64,000 nucleotides of DNA from Prolixibacteraceae bacterium (lineage in GTDB: Bacteria; Bacteroidota; Bacteroidia; Bacteroidales; Prolixibacteraceae): positions 62,001-126,000 of the forward strand of contig WTWZ01000001.1 in assembly GCA_009773765.1 (NCBI GenBank), in the 5' to 3' direction. Position 1 is the stretch's first letter. Every line of letters begins with the position of its first letter. Below the pieces are notes generated by a model. That model did not search any database. It was not told where the DNA came from and saw nothing but the letters and a program-made list of their open reading frames with translations. The translations under genes were made by a program, and so were the position numbers. Shown one piece after another: positions 6,319 to 50,002 of the stretch.

Positions 6319-7866
6319 ATGAAAAAAATAGTTTTAATAATGCTTATCGCATTTCCATTGTATCTTTTTGGTCAGAAAGGATGTAATTTTTTTGATTATC
6401 GAAAGATAGAAATTGAAAAAACAAATTTGAATACGCTTCAAAGCGATTTCGGCCCTGCATACGTTAACAATGAACTTTGGTTCTCAGCCTTTACTGATGA
6501 GGGAATAGCCAAATTATCGAAAGGTGCGAAAAAAGGTGTTTTTTACAATTTATTTAGTGCAAAAGTTGATGATGACGGGAATGTAACCGGTTCAAAAAAC
6601 AGTAAGTTGGAAAATATCAGCGCCGGATATCATGCTGGCCCGGTTTCCTGGTGTGAAAAAACCAACGAGCTATTTGTAACTATAAATAATTTTGATAATC
6701 CTGAAATCAGAAACAAAGTGTACAGAAAGGCAGATATCAGGTTGAGAATTGTTATTGCTGAAAAAAAGGATGGTGTTTGGACACTTAAAGAGGAATTACC
6801 TTTTAACGATTCAACGTATTCAGTAGGTCATCCGGCTGTTACTGTAACAGGAGACACTTTGTTTTTTGCATCCAATAAACCAAATACCGGCTTTGGTGGA
6901 AGCGACATTTATATGTCGGTTCGCAACGACGGAAAATGGGGAGACCCTGTAAACCTGGGAGGAAATGTAAATTCATCCAAAGATGAAATGTTTCCATTCT
7001 TTTTTGATGGTTCAGTTTTATTTTATTCAACCAACAACGGAGAAAACGAAAATAGTAATCTGGATATGAAATACGTCTGTAAAAAAGGAAACGGTTTTGG
7101 AGAATCCAAATCGCTGGAAAAATTCAATACAGAAGAGGATGATTTTGGGTTAATAATTCATCCGAAAGGTAAAGTTGGATATTTTGCATCGAGAAAACAG
7201 GGCGGATTGGGCGACGATGATATTTATAAAGTTAGTTTTAGAGGCGAGTACAATTTGGAATTGATGGTAATGGATAAAAAAACCTTGCAACCTGTTCCGA
7301 ATCCCACAGTTAAATTCAGTGATAACATAAATGGTATTTTTAGTGGGTTTATTTTAACAAGGGCATTAACTGAAAATACAAGTGTAACAGTTTCCACCGA
7401 AATTGATGGCTATCAGAATACTTCTAAAAGCATATCAACGGTTAACAAACCTTTTGGCATCATCAGAGATACTTTATGGGTTGAAAAAGTGGAAGTTCGG
7501 CAGATATTTGTACTTGAAAATATTTTCTATGATTTTGATAAGTGGAATATTTTGCCTGAATCGGAAATCGAGTTAAATAAATTAGTAAAAATACTGAATG
7601 ACAATCCTACCTGGAAAGTTGAACTGGGTTCGCATACCGATGCAAGGGGCAGCGATAAATATAATATCAGGTTAAGCCAGAGAAGATCCGATTCGGCAGT
7701 AGGGTATATTGTTATGAGCGGAATTGCAAAGGAAAGGATTATAGCAAAAGGATACGGTGAAACTAAATTGGTAAATCATTGCAAAAATGGTGTTCAATGT
7801 ACAGATGAAGTTCACAGGCAAAATCGTCGCACCGAATTTAAAATACTGGAAATGGAAAATAAATAG
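6319..7866 (+). CDS. OmpA-family envelope protein with PD40 repeats (copy 1)
   Basis: 515 aa. A signal peptide (MKKIVLIMLIAFPLYLFGQ) is followed by WD40-like PD40 beta-propeller repeats, recognisable by FGPAYVNNELWFSA, LFFASNKPNTGFGGSDIY and the VGYFASRKQGGLGDDDIY type strands (residues about 45-310). A small linker domain (310-390) leads to a C-terminal OmpA peptidoglycan-binding domain (about 395-510) with LENIFYDFDKWNI, SHTDARGSDKYN, LSQRRSD, KGYGE and NRRTEFK. The protein should be in the periplasm or anchored in the outer membrane and bound to peptidoglycan. It is followed 31 bp later by a full-length paralogue of identical length. Exact function unknown; PD40-OmpA proteins in Bacteroidota include gliding/T9SS accessory factors, but I see nothing that ties this one to that. 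Confidence 0.85.
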   Translation: MKKIVLIMLIAFPLYLFGQKGCNFFDYRKIEIEKTNLNTLQSDFGPAYVNNELWFSAFTDEGIAKLSKGAKKGVFYNLFSAKVDDDGNVTGSKNSKLENISAGYHAGPVSWCEKTNELFVTINNFDNPEIRNKVYRKADIRLRIVIAEKKDGVWTLKEELPFNDSTYSVGHPAVTVTGDTLFFASNKPNTGFGGSDIYMSVRNDGKWGDPVNLGGNVNSSKDEMFPFFFDGSVLFYSTNNGENENSNLDMKYVCKKGNGFGESKSLEKFNTEEDDFGLIIHPKGKVGYFASRKQGGLGDDDIYKVSFRGEYNLELMVMDKKTLQPVPNPTVKFSDNINGIFSGFILTRALTENTSVTVSTEIDGYQNTSKSISTVNKPFGIIRDTLWVEKVEVRQIFVLENIFYDFDKWNILPESEIELNKLVKILNDNPTWKVELGSHTDARGSDKYNIRLSQRRSDSAVGYIVMSGIAKERIIAKGYGETKLVNHCKNGVQCTDEVHRQNRRTEFKILEMENK

Positions 7867-7897
7867 TTAACTATTTTAAAACCAAAAATATAGAATC

Positions 7898-9445
7898 ATG
7901 AAAAAACTAACCCTATTACTGTATTTGGTGTTTCCATTACTGGTTTCTGCACAAAATGGCTGTAATTTTTTTGATTTCAGAAAACTTGAAATTCAAAAAA
8001 CTGCTTTGAATACAACTCAAAGTGATTTTGGGCCTGCATTTGTTGAAGATGAGTTGTGGTTTTCGGCCTTTACCGATGAAGAAATCCGAAGTATGGCGAA
8101 AAGTGACAAAAAAGATTTTTTTTATAATCTGTACAATGTAAAAACCGATGAAGACGGAAATGTAACAGGCGTTAAAAATGTTCAGTCCGAAGCAATCAGC
8201 GCAGGATATCATGCAGGGCCGGTTTCGTATTGTGCTGCAACCGGCGAACTTTTTGTAACGTTAAGCAATTTCGATAACCCTGAAATTAAAAACAACGTTT
8301 ACCAAAAAGCTGACATCCGTTTGAAGATTATTATCACAAAAAAAATTAACGGGGCCTGGACGTTAACCGAAGAATTCCCGCATAACAACCCGTTATATTC
8401 AGTGGGGCATCCTGCAATCTCGGTAACTGGTGATTCATTGTTTTACGCATCGAATAAACCTGATTCTGGTTTTGGGGAAAGTGATATTTATCTGTCGGTC
8501 AGGAAAAATGGAAAATGGGGAGAACCGGTTAATCTGGGTGAAAAAATAAATTCAGCTTTTGATGAAATGTTTCCCTTCTTTTTTGATGGTTCTGTTTTGT
8601 TTTATGCAACCAATAAAGCAAAAAATAAAAAGGACGATTTTAATTTAATGTACATCTGCAAATCAGGAGATTCTTTTGGCGATTCGAAAACGCTGGATGG
8701 TTTTAATACGAAAAAGGATGACTTTGGTTTAATTATTCACCCAAATGGAAAAGCAGGGTATTTTGTTTCAAGACGCAATGGTGGAATTGGCGATGACGAT
8801 ATTTACAAAGTTACTTTCAAAGGGGAACATCAATTGGAACTGGCTGTATTGGATAAAAAAACGTTGCAAAATATTCCGAATCCAAAAGTTAAATTCAGCG
8901 ATAATATACCAGGTATTTTATCGGGTACTGTTGTAACCAGGTTGTTGCCTGAAAATTCAACAATCCTAACTACTTCGGAAATTGAAGGCTATCAGAATTC
9001 ATCAAAAAATATTACAAGTGTTGGCAAAACCTTTGGAATAATTAAAGATACAATTTGGGTCGAAAAGGTTGAAGTAGGGCAGAAATTTGTGCTCGAAAAT
9101 ATTTTTTATGACTATGATAAATGGGATATTATTCCTGAATCGGAAGTTGAATTGAACAAATTAATTGCAGTAATGAAAAATAACCCAAGCTGGAAAGTGG
9201 AACTGGGTTCGCATACCGATGCGCGAGGCACCGATTCGTACAATGAGATTTTAAGCCAAAAAAGATCTGATTCGGCTGTTGAATATATTATAAAAAACGG
9301 CGTGGGCAATAATCGCATAATAGCAAAAGGCTACGGTGAGAGTCAGTTGATTAACCATTGTAAAAACGGTGTGGAATGCCCTGATGAAGTTCACCGGCAG
9401 AATAGGCGCACCGAATTTAAAATTCTGGAAATGGACGGTAAGTAA
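7898..9445 (+). CDS. OmpA-family envelope protein with PD40 repeats (copy 2)
   Basis: 515 aa, colinear with the preceding gene without obvious gaps and clearly its tandem duplicate. Signal peptide MKKLTLLLYLVFPLLVSAQ, the same NGCNFFDFRKLEIQKT start of the mature part, PD40 repeats such as LFYASNKPDSGFGESDIY, and a C-terminal OmpA domain with ENIFYDYDKWDI, SHTDARGTDSYN, KGYGESQ and NRRTEFKILEMDGK. The two most likely form one transcript ending at the hairpin at 9462. Two similar but not identical copies suggest either a hetero-complex or specialisation. Confidence 0.85.
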   Translation: MKKLTLLLYLVFPLLVSAQNGCNFFDFRKLEIQKTALNTTQSDFGPAFVEDELWFSAFTDEEIRSMAKSDKKDFFYNLYNVKTDEDGNVTGVKNVQSEAISAGYHAGPVSYCAATGELFVTLSNFDNPEIKNNVYQKADIRLKIIITKKINGAWTLTEEFPHNNPLYSVGHPAISVTGDSLFYASNKPDSGFGESDIYLSVRKNGKWGEPVNLGEKINSAFDEMFPFFFDGSVLFYATNKAKNKKDDFNLMYICKSGDSFGDSKTLDGFNTKKDDFGLIIHPNGKAGYFVSRRNGGIGDDDIYKVTFKGEHQLELAVLDKKTLQNIPNPKVKFSDNIPGILSGTVVTRLLPENSTILTTSEIEGYQNSSKNITSVGKTFGIIKDTIWVEKVEVGQKFVLENIFYDYDKWDIIPESEVELNKLIAVMKNNPSWKVELGSHTDARGTDSYNEILSQKRSDSAVEYIIKNGVGNNRIIAKGYGESQLINHCKNGVECPDEVHRQNRRTEFKILEMDGK

Positions 9446-19974: not shown

Positions 19975-20412
19975 TGGTTTGTTTCAATTTCTGCGCAAAA
20001 ATAACTAAAGGAGTTTAAAGTTTAGAGTTTAGAGTTAGAGATTAAGGTCAAATGTTGAAAGTTTCGGGCTTTGTGTTCAGAATTTAAAATGTGTCTAATT
20101 TTCAGGCTGTTTGAATTTTACCAGTAAATTATATTTTCATAAACACAGTAAAACGCTTGATGAATGAAATAATTAAATATGGGAAACATGTTAATTAACA
20201 GCAAATACAAAAAAAGAAAAGGATACATTCGGAAGCATTAAAACCATTAATGTACTGACCATCAAAAACCATTTAAAAATGAAATCCATATTCACAAAAA
20301 AACTTACCCGGTTAATTTAAAAGCCTCCCCTGTAACCCCCAACCGGGGAGGCAAAAAGTGTTTTACGGGGAATCTTGCATATTACTAAATTGTATTAATA
20401 AATACTCATATT
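19975..20412. other. intergenic region mutS2 to outer-membrane protein
   Basis: 438 bp, A+T-rich. It contains a degenerate short tandem run (AGTTTAGAG-type units, about 20010-20040), two abortive mini-frames that stop after 13-20 codons, and one copy of the dispersed G/C-rich palindromic repeat at 20319-20356. No RNA gene recognised. Confidence 0.5.
20319..20356 (+). repeat. dispersed G/C-rich palindromic repeat, copy G
   Basis: Hairpin with stem GCCTCCCC / GGGGAGGC (20323-20330 and 20345-20352) and a C-rich 14-base loop, flanked by short A runs. It belongs to the same family as the copies at 29.66, 47.2, 47.3, 51.1, 60.1 and 63.0 kb. Confidence 0.6.
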
Positions 20413-29655: not shown

Positions 29656-29659
29656 AGAA

Positions 29660-29692
29660 TGCCCCCTCCAGCTCCCCCTAAGGGGAGAGTTT
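29660..29692 (+). repeat. dispersed G/C-rich palindromic repeat, copy A
   Basis: Directly after the ffh stop: a C-rich arm leads into the hairpin CTCCCC-CTAA-GGGGAG (29672-29687). Same family and same orientation relative to the upstream gene as the copies at the ends of sufB, the 50.3-kb gene and cutC. It is followed by a short run of GGACTT/CCGAC-type units (29705-29740). Confidence 0.65.
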
Positions 29693-43874: not shown

Positions 43875-45092
43875 TCAAAACATCAGTCTCACTTTATTCA
43901 AAGCAGCTATAAAAATATCGATTTCAGCTTTGGTATTGTACAATCCAAACGAAATACGGACACACCCGTTAATTCCGAAATGCTGCATAACAGTATCGGC
44001 ACACAAGTGGCCTGTGCGAACGGCAATTCCCATTTTATCGAGCAGCACCCCTAAATCGTAGAAATGAATTCCTTCGATATTAAACGAAATAACGCTCGAT
44101 TTTTCGGGAGCTTCGCCATAAATTCTGATTCCCTGTACCTCTTTTAGTTTAGAGGTTGCATATTCGAGTAAACTGAGTTCCCATTCCTCAATATTTTGAA
44201 GGCCAATTTCAATTATCAAACCTATGGCCGCACCAAATGCGATTACACTGGTAATGTTTGGTGTGCCTGCTTCAAATTTCAAGGGGAGTTGATTAAAGGT
44301 AGTGCCTTCAAAAGAAACTTCGGCAATCATTTCACCGCCGCCCTGGTAAGGAGGTATTTGTTCGAGCCATTTCTTTTTGCCGTACAATACACCCACACCG
44401 TTTGGGCCGTATAATTTATGGGCTGAAAAGGCATAAAAATCGGCATCCAGCTTTTGAACATCAATTTGTAAATGTTGCACAGCCTGAGCCCCATCAACAA
44501 AAACTGCAACATTATTTTCGTGGGCAAGTTCTATAATTTCTGAAACAGGATTAACCGTTCCCAAAACATTTGAAACGTGCGCAACAGCAATCAGTTTCGT
44601 TTTTTGATTAATCAGGGATGGGAGTTTTTCAATCTCCAATACACCCAAATCGTTAAATGGAAGTTTAACAATTTTTGCTTTTTTACGTTCAGCAGCCAAC
44701 TGCCAGGGAACTATATTGGCATGGTGTTCCATTTCGGAAACGATGATTTCGTCGCCCTCTTTAACAAACTTTTCACAAAACGAATAAGCAACCAGATTCA
44801 CACTTTCGGTGGTACCTTTGGTAAAAATGATTTCTTCCCTGGATTCAGCATTGATAAAGTTCCTGATTTTGTCCCTCACTTCCTCAAACTGAACCGTGGT
44901 TTTGTCGGCCATAAAATGAGCTCCCCGGTGAATGTTTCCATAATAGTCGTTATGAAGTTTTTCTTTGGCCATCAACACCTGAATTGGTTTTTGTGCCGAA
45001 GCTGCACTGTCGAAATATACCAAGGGTTTATCATATACTTTTTGATGCAATACAGGGAAATAACTTCGTATTTTTTGAATATCGTAATTCAT
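43875..45092 (-). CDS. sufS: cysteine desulfurase SufS
   Basis: 405 aa PLP enzyme that frees sulfur from cysteine. It has FDSAASAQKPIQVL at the N-terminus, TKGTTESVNLVAYSF, EHHANIVPWQ, the PLP lysine in AFSAHKLYGPNGVGVLYGKK and the active-site Cys in AVRTGHLCADTVMQHFG near the C-terminus (group II position). It is 8 bp after sufD, so clearly one operon. Confidence 0.96.
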   Translation of the reverse strand: MNYDIQKIRSYFPVLHQKVYDKPLVYFDSAASAQKPIQVLMAKEKLHNDYYGNIHRGAHFMADKTTVQFEEVRDKIRNFINAESREEIIFTKGTTESVNLVAYSFCEKFVKEGDEIIVSEMEHHANIVPWQLAAERKKAKIVKLPFNDLGVLEIEKLPSLINQKTKLIAVAHVSNVLGTVNPVSEIIELAHENNVAVFVDGAQAVQHLQIDVQKLDADFYAFSAHKLYGPNGVGVLYGKKKWLEQIPPYQGGGEMIAEVSFEGTTFNQLPLKFEAGTPNITSVIAFGAAIGLIIEIGLQNIEEWELSLLEYATSKLKEVQGIRIYGEAPEKSSVISFNIEGIHFYDLGVLLDKMGIAVRTGHLCADTVMQHFGINGCVRISFGLYNTKAEIDIFIAALNKVRLMF

Positions 45093-45100
45093 TTAGTTTA

Positions 45101-46471
45101 TTAACAATCACAATTATAGGAACAATCGTGGCAGCGCGCAACTTCTCCCCTTAACCTTTTCTCAATCAGTTCGTCGATTCTTTCCCTCAGGGTTTCCACT
45201 TTTATTTGCTGGACAACTTCATGAGCAAAGGCATTCATCATTATCATCCTGGCTTTTTCTTCATCAACTCCGCGGGTACGCAAATAAAACATGGCCTGTT
45301 CGTCCATTTGACCGACAGTGGCGCCATGGCTGCATTTAACATCATCAGCATCAATAACAAGCTGAGGTTTGGTTTGCATGGTAGCCGTATCGGTTAAAAG
45401 CAAATTGTTGTTTCGCTGAAATGCGTTCGTTTTTTGTGCATCGCGCACAACGTGTATTTTGCCCGAGAAAGCCCCGGTCGATTTGTCGTCAAGAACATAT
45501 TTGTAAATCTGGTTGCTCCGGCAATGCGGTTTGGCATGAATTACCTGCGTGAAATTATCGATGTGCTGGTTTTTATCCAGAAATGCCATTCCATACATAT
45601 TGGCTTCGGCATTCCCGCCGTTGATTAAAATTTTTAAATTATTGCGAATCAGTCCGCCGTGTAGCGAAACGGTGTGCGTAGTTATGTTTGAATTTTTTTC
45701 CTGCTGAACAAAAACTGAATTAATACTTGTAGTGCTGTTGTGCTGATTTTGAACTGTATAATAGTCGAAATTGGCGTTTTCAGCAATAAAGATTTCTGTA
45801 ACCGAATTATTTACATACTGGTTTAAGTCGAGTGTGTGGTCGCAAATAATCAGTTTTGCACTTGCACCCTGTTCAATAATAACCAGGTTTCTCTGTGTTG
45901 AAAAAGTATCTTTGTCCGATTTCAGCATGTTGATAATCTGGATGGGGTCCTCAACAATTACATTCTTCGGGATGTAAAGGAAATAACCGTCTTTTGCCAT
46001 CGCGGTGTTAAACGCAACCAGCGGATCGGCACCTGTTTCCGCTATTTTTGCATAATATTTCTGAAGAATTCCAGGATTATTTTTTGCAACCTTTTCCAAA
46101 CTTTCCAGAATCGCGCCTTCAGGCAGTTTTCCCGATTTTGTATTTTTTTGGTAAAACCAGCCGTTAAAAAGAAGCGTAAGGTGGGTGTTTAACTGAGGGA
46201 CATTGCAACTGAAAATCTCTGCCAGACTGGCATCGGTTTCTTCATTTTTATGCAGGAATTTGAAATCGGGCAGAAATTTGGGCTGAAGGTTTGTGTATTT
46301 GTAATTTTCGTTTTTACGGGTAGGGATACCCTGCATCACAAAATCCTGAAAAGCCATTTTCCTGTGTTGGTTCAAAACATCCGGCGAATCGGCAAACAGT
46401 AGCTCTTTCGCTTCATTGAAGTGGGAAATATATTTAAGCGATAAATCCGTTTTTTCAGTAATAACACTCAT
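45101..46471 (-). CDS. sufD: Fe-S cluster assembly scaffold subunit SufD
   Basis: 456 aa from ATG 46471 (MSVITEKTDLSL), 1 bp after the sufC stop. Right-handed beta-helix core with KNENYKYTNL, ANFDYYTVQNQHN, HVVRDAQKTNAFQRNNNLLL and CSHGATVGQMDEQAMFYLRTRG. Partner of SufB and SufC in the scaffold complex. The end is notable: after the usual ERIDELIEKRLRGEV helix the protein finishes with CHDCSYNCDC, four cysteines in ten residues, absent from the E. coli protein as I know it. Confidence 0.95.
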   Translation of the reverse strand: MSVITEKTDLSLKYISHFNEAKELLFADSPDVLNQHRKMAFQDFVMQGIPTRKNENYKYTNLQPKFLPDFKFLHKNEETDASLAEIFSCNVPQLNTHLTLLFNGWFYQKNTKSGKLPEGAILESLEKVAKNNPGILQKYYAKIAETGADPLVAFNTAMAKDGYFLYIPKNVIVEDPIQIINMLKSDKDTFSTQRNLVIIEQGASAKLIICDHTLDLNQYVNNSVTEIFIAENANFDYYTVQNQHNSTTSINSVFVQQEKNSNITTHTVSLHGGLIRNNLKILINGGNAEANMYGMAFLDKNQHIDNFTQVIHAKPHCRSNQIYKYVLDDKSTGAFSGKIHVVRDAQKTNAFQRNNNLLLTDTATMQTKPQLVIDADDVKCSHGATVGQMDEQAMFYLRTRGVDEEKARMIMMNAFAHEVVQQIKVETLRERIDELIEKRLRGEVARCHDCSYNCDC

Positions 46472-46472
46472 T

Positions 46473-47219
46473 TTAGTTTTCTTTTTTAATCCAGTCGTAC
46501 CCTTTTTCTTCCAACTCGAAGGCAAGTTCTTTGCCGGCCGATTTAACTATTCTTCCGTCATAAAGCACATGGACAAAATCGGGAACGATGTATTCGAGCA
46601 ACCTCTGGTAATGGGTAACCACAATTGTGGCATTATCTTTTGTTTTCAGTGCATTAACTCCGTGGGCAACTGTTTTTAGCGCGTCGATGTCGAGCCCGGA
46701 ATCAGTTTCATCGAGTACGGCAAGTTTGGGTTCCAAAAGCGCCATCTGAAAAATTTCGTTTTTCTTTTTCTCCCCACCCGAAAAACCTTCGTTTACCGAA
46801 CGGTTGGCAAGGGTTGGGTGCATGTCAACCAAATCCATTTTCTCCCGCATCAGTTTCAGGAACTCGCCGGCATTCAGCTCTTTTTCGCCCCTGTGTTTAC
46901 GGTGTTCGTTTACCGCTGTTTTCAGAAAGTTAACCATGGGCACCCCCGGAATTTCAACCGGATACTGGAAACTCAGGAATATTCCTTCCTTTGCGCGGTC
47001 TTCCGGCGACTTTTCCAGCAAATCTTCACCCATGTAGGTAATTTCGCCTTCAGTTACTTCGTACTCTTCTTTCCCCACGAGCACATTGGCAAGTGTACTT
47101 TTTCCTGAACCGTTAGGCCCCATTATGGCATGAACCTCACCAGGTTTTACTTCAAGATTGATACCTTTCAGAATTTCCTGTCCATCGACAGAAACGTATA
47201 AGTTTTTAATTGTAAGCAT
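46473..47219 (-). CDS. sufC: Fe-S cluster assembly ATPase SufC
   Basis: 248 aa ABC-type ATPase. Walker A MGPNGSGKSTLANVLVG, the SufC-typical FLSFQYPVEIPGV, signature NEGFSGGEKKKNEIFQ and Walker B KLAVLDETDSGLD, then the H-loop VTHYQRLLEYI. Powers the SufBCD scaffold. It is separated from sufB by 158 bp that hold two inverted copies of a dispersed repeat, unusual for this otherwise tight operon. Confidence 0.97.
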   Translation of the reverse strand: MLTIKNLYVSVDGQEILKGINLEVKPGEVHAIMGPNGSGKSTLANVLVGKEEYEVTEGEITYMGEDLLEKSPEDRAKEGIFLSFQYPVEIPGVPMVNFLKTAVNEHRKHRGEKELNAGEFLKLMREKMDLVDMHPTLANRSVNEGFSGGEKKKNEIFQMALLEPKLAVLDETDSGLDIDALKTVAHGVNALKTKDNATIVVTHYQRLLEYIVPDFVHVLYDGRIVKSAGKELAFELEEKGYDWIKKEN

Positions 47220-47220
47220 A

Positions 47221-47379
47221 ATCCCCCCTCTTCAGCCCCCTCTAACTCCCCCAGGGGGGAGAACAGGAGCGAATATATTAGATATTTTTTATTTATATAT
47301 TTTTTCATTTTTTTGTTCTCTTGTTTCTTGTTTTCCCCCTTCGGGGGAACTAAAGGGGGCTTTGGCAGGGAGGGGCTTT
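47221..47379. repeat. inverted pair of dispersed G/C-rich repeats (copies B and F) between sufB and sufC
   Basis: Copy B (47221-47263, plus orientation) contains AGCCCCCTCTAACTCCCCC then GGGGGGAG. Copy F (47330-47379) is the same element inverted: read on the minus strand it contains AGCCCCCTTTAGTTCCCCC, GAA, GGGGGA. The roughly 66 bp between them are almost pure A/T. The two copies can pair along most of their length into one long hairpin, and each can also form its own small hairpin. Copy F begins right at the sufB stop codon. Confidence 0.75.
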
Positions 47380-48953: not shown

Positions 48954-50002
48954 ATGAGTAAAGAAAAGCAACAAACAAGCATTTCGGAGTTGGGCGAATT
49001 TGGCCTGATTGACCGGTTGACTAAAGATATTCAACTTAAAAATAAAAGTACAATCAAAGGGGTTGGCGATGATGCTGCGATTCTGGAATATGGAGAAAAG
49101 CAAATTGTCGTTTCATCCGATTTACTGACCGAAGGAATTCATTTTAACCTGATGTATGTACCGCTGAAACATTTGGGGTACAAGGCTGTAATTGTCAATC
49201 TTTCTGATGTTTGCGCCATGAATGCAATTCCGAAACAGATTGTGGTGAACATTGCGGTTTCGGGTAAATATTCGGTTGAAGCGATTGAGGAGCTGTACTC
49301 AGGAATTCACATGGCCTGCGAAAAGTACGGCGTCGATTTGGTGGGCGGCGACACTACAAGTTCGTTAACAGGATTGACGATTAGCATAACCGTATTGGGC
49401 GAAATTGAAAAGGGAAATGCAGTTTTCAGAAGCGGCGCTAAACGAAACGATTTGCTTTGTATTACCGGCGATTTGGGTGGCGCTTACATGGGCTTGCAAC
49501 TGCTCGAACGCGAAAACGAGGTTTATAAGGTGGATCCAAATATGCAACCACAACTGGCAGGTTATGATTATATCCTTCAGCGCCAGTTAAGGCCTGAAGC
49601 ACGCGTTGACATTGTTTCGGCATTTCAAAAAATGGGAATCAAATCAAACCCACTTCGATGATTGATATTTCCGACGGGCTTTCATCCGAAATTCATCACC
49701 TGTGCAAAAAGTCCGGACTTGGCTGCAGTTTGTACGAAGAGAAAATCCCCTTTGATTTTCAAACTAAAAAAATGGCCGAGGAAATGAACATAAATCCGCT
49801 GGTTGCCGCTCTGAACGGCGGAGAGGATTACGAACTGCTTTTTACAGTTTCACTGGCTGATTACGACAAAATTAAAAACGACCCCGATTTCACCATCATC
49901 GGGCACATGACCGAAGCTGCTGAAGGAGTGAATCTGATAACCACTGGCGGTTCGGCTATTCCGCTGGAAGCGCAGGGGTGGGTGCATGGAAAGGGCGAAT
50001 GA
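48954..50002 (+). CDS. thiL: thiamine-monophosphate kinase, interrupted by a frameshift
   Basis: Phosphorylates thiamine monophosphate to the active diphosphate. The first frame (48954-49661) has the AIRS-like N-terminal domain: SELGEFGLIDRLT, KGVGDDAAIL, VVSSDLLTEGIHF, NLSDVCAMNA and VGGDTTSS. It stops with KSNPLR. The second frame (from 49658) carries on at MIDISDGLSSEIHHLC, ALNGGEDYELLFTV and the C-terminus. In the family these are continuous (a PTSMIDISDG-type junction). Adding one A to the run at 49646-49648 gives KSKPTSMIDISDG. Total would be about 348 residues, the usual length. Either a true inactivating deletion or a sequence error. Confidence 0.9.

Follow-up and report, generated by a model that had tools for sequence, protein, structure and literature searches.

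We suggest, at a probability of about 60%, that a doublet of hairpin repeats has come to occupy the gap between sufB and sufC, that these repeats belong to a dispersed, REP-like family of this Bacteroidota genus, referred to here as the C-run family, and that the placement, spread and RNA effect of this doublet are those proposed below. The window, i.e. the whole stretch of 64 kb that was analysed, belongs to a 4.27-Mb draft genome of 118 contigs (G000); its coordinates are those of contig C15 minus 62000, and the suf genes lie in it in the order sufB, sufC, sufD, sufS and sufE, all on the minus strand. In the collection searched, the closest named record to its SufC, at 82% identity, is a Draconibacterium sp. 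MAG (L294), and the genome is therefore probably from Draconibacterium or a neighbouring genus of Prolixibacteraceae. The features are, in window coordinates:

29658..29692, plus strand: third C-run unit in the window (C15:91658-91692), 2 nt after a stop codon
43373..43795, minus strand: sufE (open reading frame and profile matches)
43875..45092, minus strand: sufS (open reading frame and profile matches)
45101..46525, minus strand: sufD (mechanical open reading frame; start unrefined, overlaps sufC)
46473..47219, minus strand: sufC (TIGR01978, 363.9 bits), start codon 12 nt from copy B
47232..47266, plus strand: copy B, repeat unit (covariance model, 28.5 bits; C15:109232-109266)
47267..47328, no strand: spacer of the sufB-sufC doublet, AT-rich and locus-specific
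47329..47363, minus strand: copy F, inverted repeat unit (covariance model, 42.4 bits; C15:109329-109363)
47364..47377, minus strand: half-unit AGCCCCTCCCTGCC, joining copy F to the sufB stop codon
47378..48823, minus strand: sufB (TIGR01980, 640.9 bits), stop codon touching the half-unit

The earlier note had described two copies of a repeat that face each other between sufB and sufC, and both are present as covariance-model matches on opposite strands. The 5' (GCCCCCT) end of copy B lies 12 nt upstream of the sufC ATG, and the hairpin ends of both copies point toward the spacer. The exact cores occupy 47235-47264 and 47330-47360; the stretch between them, which had been given as about 66 bp of nearly pure A/T, measures 65 bp and is, at 82% A+T (counted by hand), AT-rich rather than nearly pure. 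At the other edge of the gap, the sufB stop codon TAA (47380-47378) directly abuts the half-unit (47377-47364), and the NCBIfam model NF008773, whose match extends to its last profile position (484 of 484), agrees with this end of SufB. That copy F begins at the sufB stop is borne out in that the half-unit runs to the stop codon, and a 5' end at the edge of a coding sequence is the trend of the family. In the relative G022, the position of the half-unit is taken by a full additional unit (L052:1288-1325 and 1327-1361). Elsewhere in the window, two consecutive open reading frames (235 and 114 aa) in different frames at 48954-50002, which we take to be of the thiamine-monophosphate-kinase type, look like one gene with a frameshift, either real or a sequencing error, and a direct duplication at 6319-9277 (1,579 bp spacing, 69-76% identity over three blocks) probably represents two tandem paralogous genes.

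C-run units have a consensus of about GCCCCCT-N4-9-YCCCCC-nnn-GGGGGR. The core pattern TCCCCCNNNGGGGGA matches the genome 21 times, compared with 0 matches for the backward control, and a longer pattern, with at most 3 mismatches allowed, is found 20 times in the forward and 20 times in the reverse direction, compared with 1 and 1 for the chance control. With a covariance model built from 27 units of G000, at least 82 units were identified in this genome at E <= 0.05 (150 of 723 first-look candidates were scored). Three of these lie inside the window (29658, 47232 and 47329), and look-alike stretches near 20327 and 62989 fall short of the threshold. In a screen of 61 genomes at E <= 0.01, with at most 114 candidates scored per genome, matches were found in 35 genomes: 64 in G000, 60 in G022, 21 each in G026 and G027, 20 in G029 and 0-17 in the others, all counts outside G000 being lower bounds because the model derives from G000. 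Outside the genus, this screen gave matches only in G038 (15), G055 (9) and G054 (2). The C-run family is, accordingly, dispersed, and the number of units differs between related species.

The units also occur as doublets of a single polarity. G000 contains 11 inverted doublets with 32-93 bp between the units, all in the order '+ then -', i.e. with the 5' AAGCCCC ends outward, and no pair in the order '- then +' within 300 bp. For 82 random positions, 0.15 close pairs would be expected over the whole genome; if the random positions are confined to 12% of the genome, the expectation is 1.23 and the largest number in 2000 draws is 6. In the stretches fetched from seven relatives (G022, G027, G026, G029, G038, G055 and G011), where the units were among the best-scoring and not a random sample, all 23 of the 23 inverted neighbours are '+ then -', and three further neighbours have the same direction. 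These observations bear on the possibility that the pair at sufB-sufC arose by chance or by misassembly. The genome is a draft in 118 contigs, as such an origin would allow; it is, however, contradicted by the pattern controls and by fold shuffles, by the recurrence of the pair in G022 and G027, and by the same polarity in other genomes, among them G029, which is a single contig. We regard this explanation as extremely improbable.

The two arms of a doublet tend to be unlike. Among 29 doublets (the 11 of G000 and 18 of the 23 from relatives, five overlapping ones being left out and some being orthologues), arm likeness is 11.8, compared with 13.7 +/- 0.8 for arms re-dealt within each genome, and only 0.7% of the re-deals are lower. 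Because true partners are less alike than re-dealt ones, a long hairpin is not supported as the rule of the family; with an arm score of 18, the sufB-sufC doublet is among the more self-complementary pairs. The spacers of the 29 doublets share only matches of at most 21 nt, with the exception of an orthologous pair at uxaC, and this locus-specificity makes it less likely that a doublet moves together with its spacer. A dispersed cassette of doublet plus spacer was rejected, there being no copy of any of the 29 spacers at another locus; a partial match of 76% between the uxaC doublet and contig C190 of G022 lies mostly within the arms. Compact doublets of 64-70 bp that have no spacer are found at nine loci in seven relatives. 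Judged from their sequence, they could form two hairpins closed by an outer stem; no target-site duplications were seen by eye around them. When sites shared by G000 and G022 were aligned, two (L141/L191, cysS-ribE) differed in arms or spacer. The gap before uxaC, which comprises a C-run doublet and its spacer (L163:4103-4245 and L178:1498-1645), is identical between G000 and G022 in 134 of 148 columns, with up to 97% identity per 100-column window and 64-88% in windows of the flanking DNA. This identity would be accounted for by constraint, by gene conversion or by a lateral exchange restricted to the gap.

In addition to their polarity relative to each other, C-run units have a preferred orientation relative to genes. 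In G000, the 5' end lies at most 5 nt from or overlaps the edge of a coding sequence in 46 of 81 units, whereas only 2 of the 81 have their 3' end so placed (both ends may overlap by up to 31 nt; unit C116:10391 was left out of the 82). These numbers become 41 and 0 if the overlap is limited to 10 nt, and 31 and 0 if overlap with the stop codon is disallowed. Under the same rule, seven relatives, two of which (G038 and G055) belong to other families of the order, have the 5' end at an edge in 42 of 75 units and the 3' end in 2 of 75 (39 and 1 with an overlap of at most 10 nt). The end nearer to a coding sequence in G000 is the 5' end in 62 of 81 units and the 3' end in 19, and the preference is seen in single units as well as in doublets. 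Stop codons (24 TAA, 9 TAG and 4 TGA) are found -14 to +14 nt from 37 of the 81 units, and 19 of the 81, that at sufC included, lie within 16 nt of an ATG; the other genes on the ATG side are, as we take it from their N-termini, pyrF, leuD, leuA, metA, der, uxaC and ribE. Open reading frames were defined mechanically (at least 100 codons) with the outermost ATG past the unit as the start, for which reason distances on the start side are less certain than those on the stop side. Taken together, C-run units tend to have their 5' end at a stop codon or, when they are inverted, at the start of a gene. Three further genomes of Bacteroidota (L304:2233, L305:2246 and L347:2258) have a C-run unit that starts close to the sufC stop, -2 to +17 nt from where the sufC match ends.

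The sufB-sufC spacing was compared in related genomes, as the earlier note had proposed. A sufC match was found in 36 congeneric genomes, and 30 of these were used as loci. The gap was obtained for 29 genomes of the genus (28 parsed and G029 by hand, G000 included); G023, which has no sufB beside sufC, was left out. It measures 55-212 bp with a median of 64 bp, and C-run arms are present in three of the 29 gaps, i.e. those of G000 (158 bp), G022 (212 bp) and G027 (133 bp), and absent from 26. In a tree of sufB and sufC pieces, in which the G029 row is misframed and its long branch without meaning, G000 stands beside (G016, (G022, G035)) and G027 beside G001, and the near relatives G016, G035 and G001 have no C-run arms at this gap. 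The sequences suggest that the arms need at least two origins unless losses are frequent, and that G000 and G022 may share one. The idea of three independent gains, which we had considered, is weakened because G000 and G022 have the same tandem layout of arms beside the sufB stop; these two may go back to a single event, followed by loss in G016 and in G035, while G027 is separate on the tree. Among 80 named loci, 77 had an upstream open reading frame and 62 passed a filter for the SufB C-terminus, three of them not being SufB ends by eye; these 62 gaps have a median of 47 bp, and one, L295, carries a unit at the sufB stop.

The doublet could fold in the suf mRNA. The RNA of the sufB-sufC gap has a predicted energy of -67 kcal/mol (z = -4.99, with no shuffle among 200 folding as well; z -5.5 in a repeat run), and the outer stem begins 4-5 nt past the sufB stop and ends 3 nt before the sufC start codon. 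If pairing is limited to 40 nt, two separate hairpins result at -38.9, and the difference from -67 favors one long hairpin; the claim that the arms can pair into such a structure is thus supported at this locus by RNA folding. Between 47100 and 47500, no intrinsic terminator (a GC stem and then a run of U, read on the suf strand) and no match to a sigma-70-type promoter were found. For the Bacteroidota-type promoter consensus, there are four matches in the window, none in the sufB-sufC spacer and without excess over shuffles. Rfam gave 15 matches at E <= 10 between 46900 and 47700, none at its gathering score. The folding model suggests that the pair can form a REP-like, stable, GC-rich intercistronic hairpin with its base beside the sufB stop and the sufC start. 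As an alternative structure, a DNA or RNA G-quadruplex or a protein-binding site near the sufC start could be envisaged, given that runs of at least five G are present on both strands of the gap. The predicted stable hairpin, however, takes up the same G runs, and we consider this alternative highly unlikely.

The question is then what such a hairpin would do in the suf operon. It might have been selected as an attenuator or a processing element, with the effect that sufB is expressed above sufCDSE. In favor of this are its predicted stability, the C-run arms that G000, G022 and G027 all have in this gap (the stop-side arm of the latter has diverged and was recognised by eye, without a model match), the unit at the sufB stop in L295, another Prolixibacteraceae genome, and a small unrelated hairpin in the sufB-sufC gap of a second clade. 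Against this stand the 26 of 29 examined gaps without the pair and the folds of the near relatives G016, G019 and G035, which are no better than shuffles (z 0.1 to 0.5), as well as the lack of a terminator match. Moreover, the leuC-leuD, leuD-leuA and metY-metA gaps of G000 and some relatives also carry C-run arms and, therefore, suf is not singled out. We consider such an element unlikely. Similarly, a hairpin conserved at sufB-sufC across the genus was rejected on the folds of the 29 gaps, the three near relatives having none, and a dedicated, conserved suf switch is unlikely because most of the gaps examined in the genus lack the pair. Without a terminator match, with most relatives examined lacking it and with the same family in unrelated operon gaps, the doublet probably did not evolve for suf stoichiometry. 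Instead, we suggest that a dispersed hairpin repeat that settled in the gap would have a mild, post-transcriptional consequence as the likeliest one: the modelled hairpin would protect the upstream sufB segment from 3' exonucleases and, being located at the sufC start, might somewhat hinder ribosomes entering sufC. By analogy with the REPs of Escherichia coli, protection of the upstream message and slower translation around the stop would be expected.

The leu and met gaps (30 loci each) were chosen because G000 carries units there. C-run arms were found in G000 and a few relatives, i.e. G012 at leuC-leuD, G032 at leuD-leuA, and G019, G031, G011 and G028 at metY-metA; this list of occupied gaps is a lower bound, the arm pattern overlooking diverged arms such as that on the stop side of the G027 sufB-sufC gap. 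The shortest gaps measure 22 bp at leuC-leuD and 12 bp at leuD-leuA, and the minimum is 55 bp at sufB-sufC and 87 bp at metY-metA. Insertion into tight gaps only fits the former two of the four gaps and not the latter two; given these two minima, selection in short gaps explains the placement at gene edges in part, not clearly all of it. In other species, the same leu and met gaps (L234-L293) contain, by eye, the inverted-repeat families ACCACCTCC..GGGGTGGT, AAGCGCAAAGAGC..GCTCTTGGCACTCTGC, GTAGTGAGTAATGAG..CTCACTACT and TGTCATTTCGA..TCGAAATGACA, and many of the inverted-repeat families in these gaps span nearly from stop to start. The palindrome TCCGYCARYTGRCGGA is present in 32 of 37 congeneric genomes with up to 51 copies per genome (backward control 0 in each) and was seen by eye at the hairpin tips of several unrelated intergenic repeat families, e.g. 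at G010:C20:144208, in L295 and in the G027 sufB-sufC gap (L077); it may be a nested micro-element.

How the family spreads is a separate matter. The RAYT model NF047646 has four matches in G000, and matches at E <= 1e-6 are found in 48 of the 61 genomes, 26 of them over the curated cut-off. The G000 RAYT genes stand among hairpins of other types: CCCCTCGTTTGCAACGAGGGG hairpins on both sides at C11 (by eye), a GCGATTGCATCG-type hairpin beside the gene at C56 (by eye), GCGGATCGGAATCCGC-type hairpins that flank the gene at C107, and at C33 a TTTGACTTGGGAAAGTCAAAG-type hairpin 3' of the gene. No C-run pair brackets a RAYT in the 30 best loci of the RAYT search (the transposase frame was parsed in 25 of these for flank comparison) or in the four G000 regions, where there are 6 model matches at E <= 0.5, although the 5' region of the RAYT at C11 contains a single weak unit. 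The other Y1 genes of G000 (C2, C18, C50 and C30) have no C-run unit of the E <= 0.05 set within 1 kb. With RAYTs that stand beside other hairpins and Y1 genes without nearby units, no mover was found for the family. The RAYT at L019, suggested by an open frame that reads through a C-run unit, was dropped as a candidate because its flanks bear a different hairpin. In several species, RAYTs with a YTHENP, YIHENP or YTHDNP motif are accompanied by CCCCTCGTTTGCAACGAGGGG-type hairpins, either on one side or on both (L099, which is G000:C11, L090, L091, L095, L097, L098, L100 and L105); this hairpin is a likely cognate REP of that class of RAYT in Bacteroidota. At L020:421-2244 (G000:C30), a Y1-transposase-like stretch and a part resembling a DNA methylase share one open frame that holds masked bases, possibly as a result of an insertion or a contig join.

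The earlier note had called the doublet REPIN-like. The tetranucleotide before the first C run was AAAG in 24, GAAG in 13, GTAG in 3 and GTGG in 1 of 81 units, the usual foot being NAAG, and no CGTC was found at the unit end within the stretch checked in these 81 units. Dispersed inverted doublets of one polarity are in line with the comparison; other hallmarks of REPINs are lacking, in that none of the four RAYT-type genes of G000 is bracketed by C-run units, a GTAG foot is seen in 3 of 81 units and the spacers differ from locus to locus. 'REPIN-like' is a fair description, and 'a REPIN' goes beyond the evidence. A true REPIN would be an inverted REP doublet that replicates as a unit and is moved in trans by a resident RAYT. 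The fixed polarity and above-chance number of inverted doublets, the compact spacer-free doublets at nine loci of seven relatives, the wide occurrence of RAYT matches, four of them in G000, and the weak unit at C11 are consistent with this possibility; it is at odds with the other hairpins around the four G000 genes, with the 6 matches at RAYT loci, none of which forms a bracketing pair, with RAYT matches in G013 and G034, where the G000-derived model finds no unit, and with spacers that are not common to the doublets. We see it as possible and rather doubtful, and favor the less specific designation of a REP-like family.

REP-like doublets as a class are already known; for the C-run family itself, no description was found among open-licence papers. 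Its variant features are unlike arms with locus-specific spacers, the lack of a RAYT partner in the loci examined, and a polarity against stops and starts. According to PMC3116915, the REPINs of Pseudomonas fluorescens likewise consist of short GC-rich units with an excess of inverted doublets, lie mostly between genes and have spacers less conserved than the units. Mixed pairs are described there as rare, whereas C-run doublets mostly have unlike arms and locus-specific spacers of 32-187 bp (29 compared); C-run units also differ in that no RAYT is bracketed by them in the loci examined and in that their 5' ends favor the edges of coding sequences. Mixed dimers or unlike arms are known in several REP families, and REPs lie near or overlap open reading frames, with GTAG REPs often supplying a TAG stop (PMC3733652). 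C-run units resemble these BIMEs and GTAG and CGTC REPs as dispersed palindromes with mixed dimers and proximity to open reading frames, and differ from the GTAG and CGTC REPs in the NAAG foot and in abutting start codons besides stops.

Two further systems offer points of comparison. For TnpA_REP of subclass 2.6 (Bertels group 5), PMC6006769 mentions 'atypical secondary structures' in Bacteroidetes. This is the same phylum, and the G000 RAYT L019/L099 has close motifs (NHIH / WQ / YTHENP) and hairpins around the gene; these hairpins are, however, of the CCCCTCGTTTGCAACGAGGGG type and not C-run units. In E. coli, REPs that lie no more than 15 nt from a stop codon are reported to lower translation (Liang 2015, as cited in PMC12306157). 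By the account of PMC12306157, the earlier study found 260 of 496 REPs close enough to a stop to regulate translation, and the wider, later count given there places 446 of 4,072 putative REPs in the stop-proximal group. Proximity on the stop side, with a hairpin directly after the stop, is thus well precedented; C-run units, in contrast, are also found at starts (19 of 81), with fixed polarity.

We propose that C-run units would have spread in the form of hairpins of single-stranded DNA, helped by an enzyme that is either a Y1/HUH nuclease acting in trans or one that has since been lost, and that selection would keep mainly those insertions that spare the flanking coding sequence, which in a short operon gap would place them right at a stop or start codon. 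No empty site that can be aligned to an occupied one was found, and the insertion itself is on that account a step that we infer. Alternatively, and with rather low confidence, we raise the possibility of an 'edge-docking' repeat, in which a process places units at the boundaries of coding sequences with the 5' end to the coding sequence and the hairpin outward into the spacer. Units would be placed at stops and, in inverted orientation, also at starts, each arm arriving singly, while the old spacer survives between them; several unrelated inverted-repeat families of this genus would fill operon gaps likewise, and intergenic DNA would be renewed by a common mechanism that is new to description.

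Should a mechanism, and not selection alone, lie behind the edge placement and the polarity, operon spacers would be renewed precisely at gene boundaries. Even if selection alone is responsible, the Bacteroidota gain a countable hairpin repeat with variable occupancy in core operons (suf, leu and met), and this variable occupancy would make an effect on mRNA or translation measurable against relatives without C-run units.
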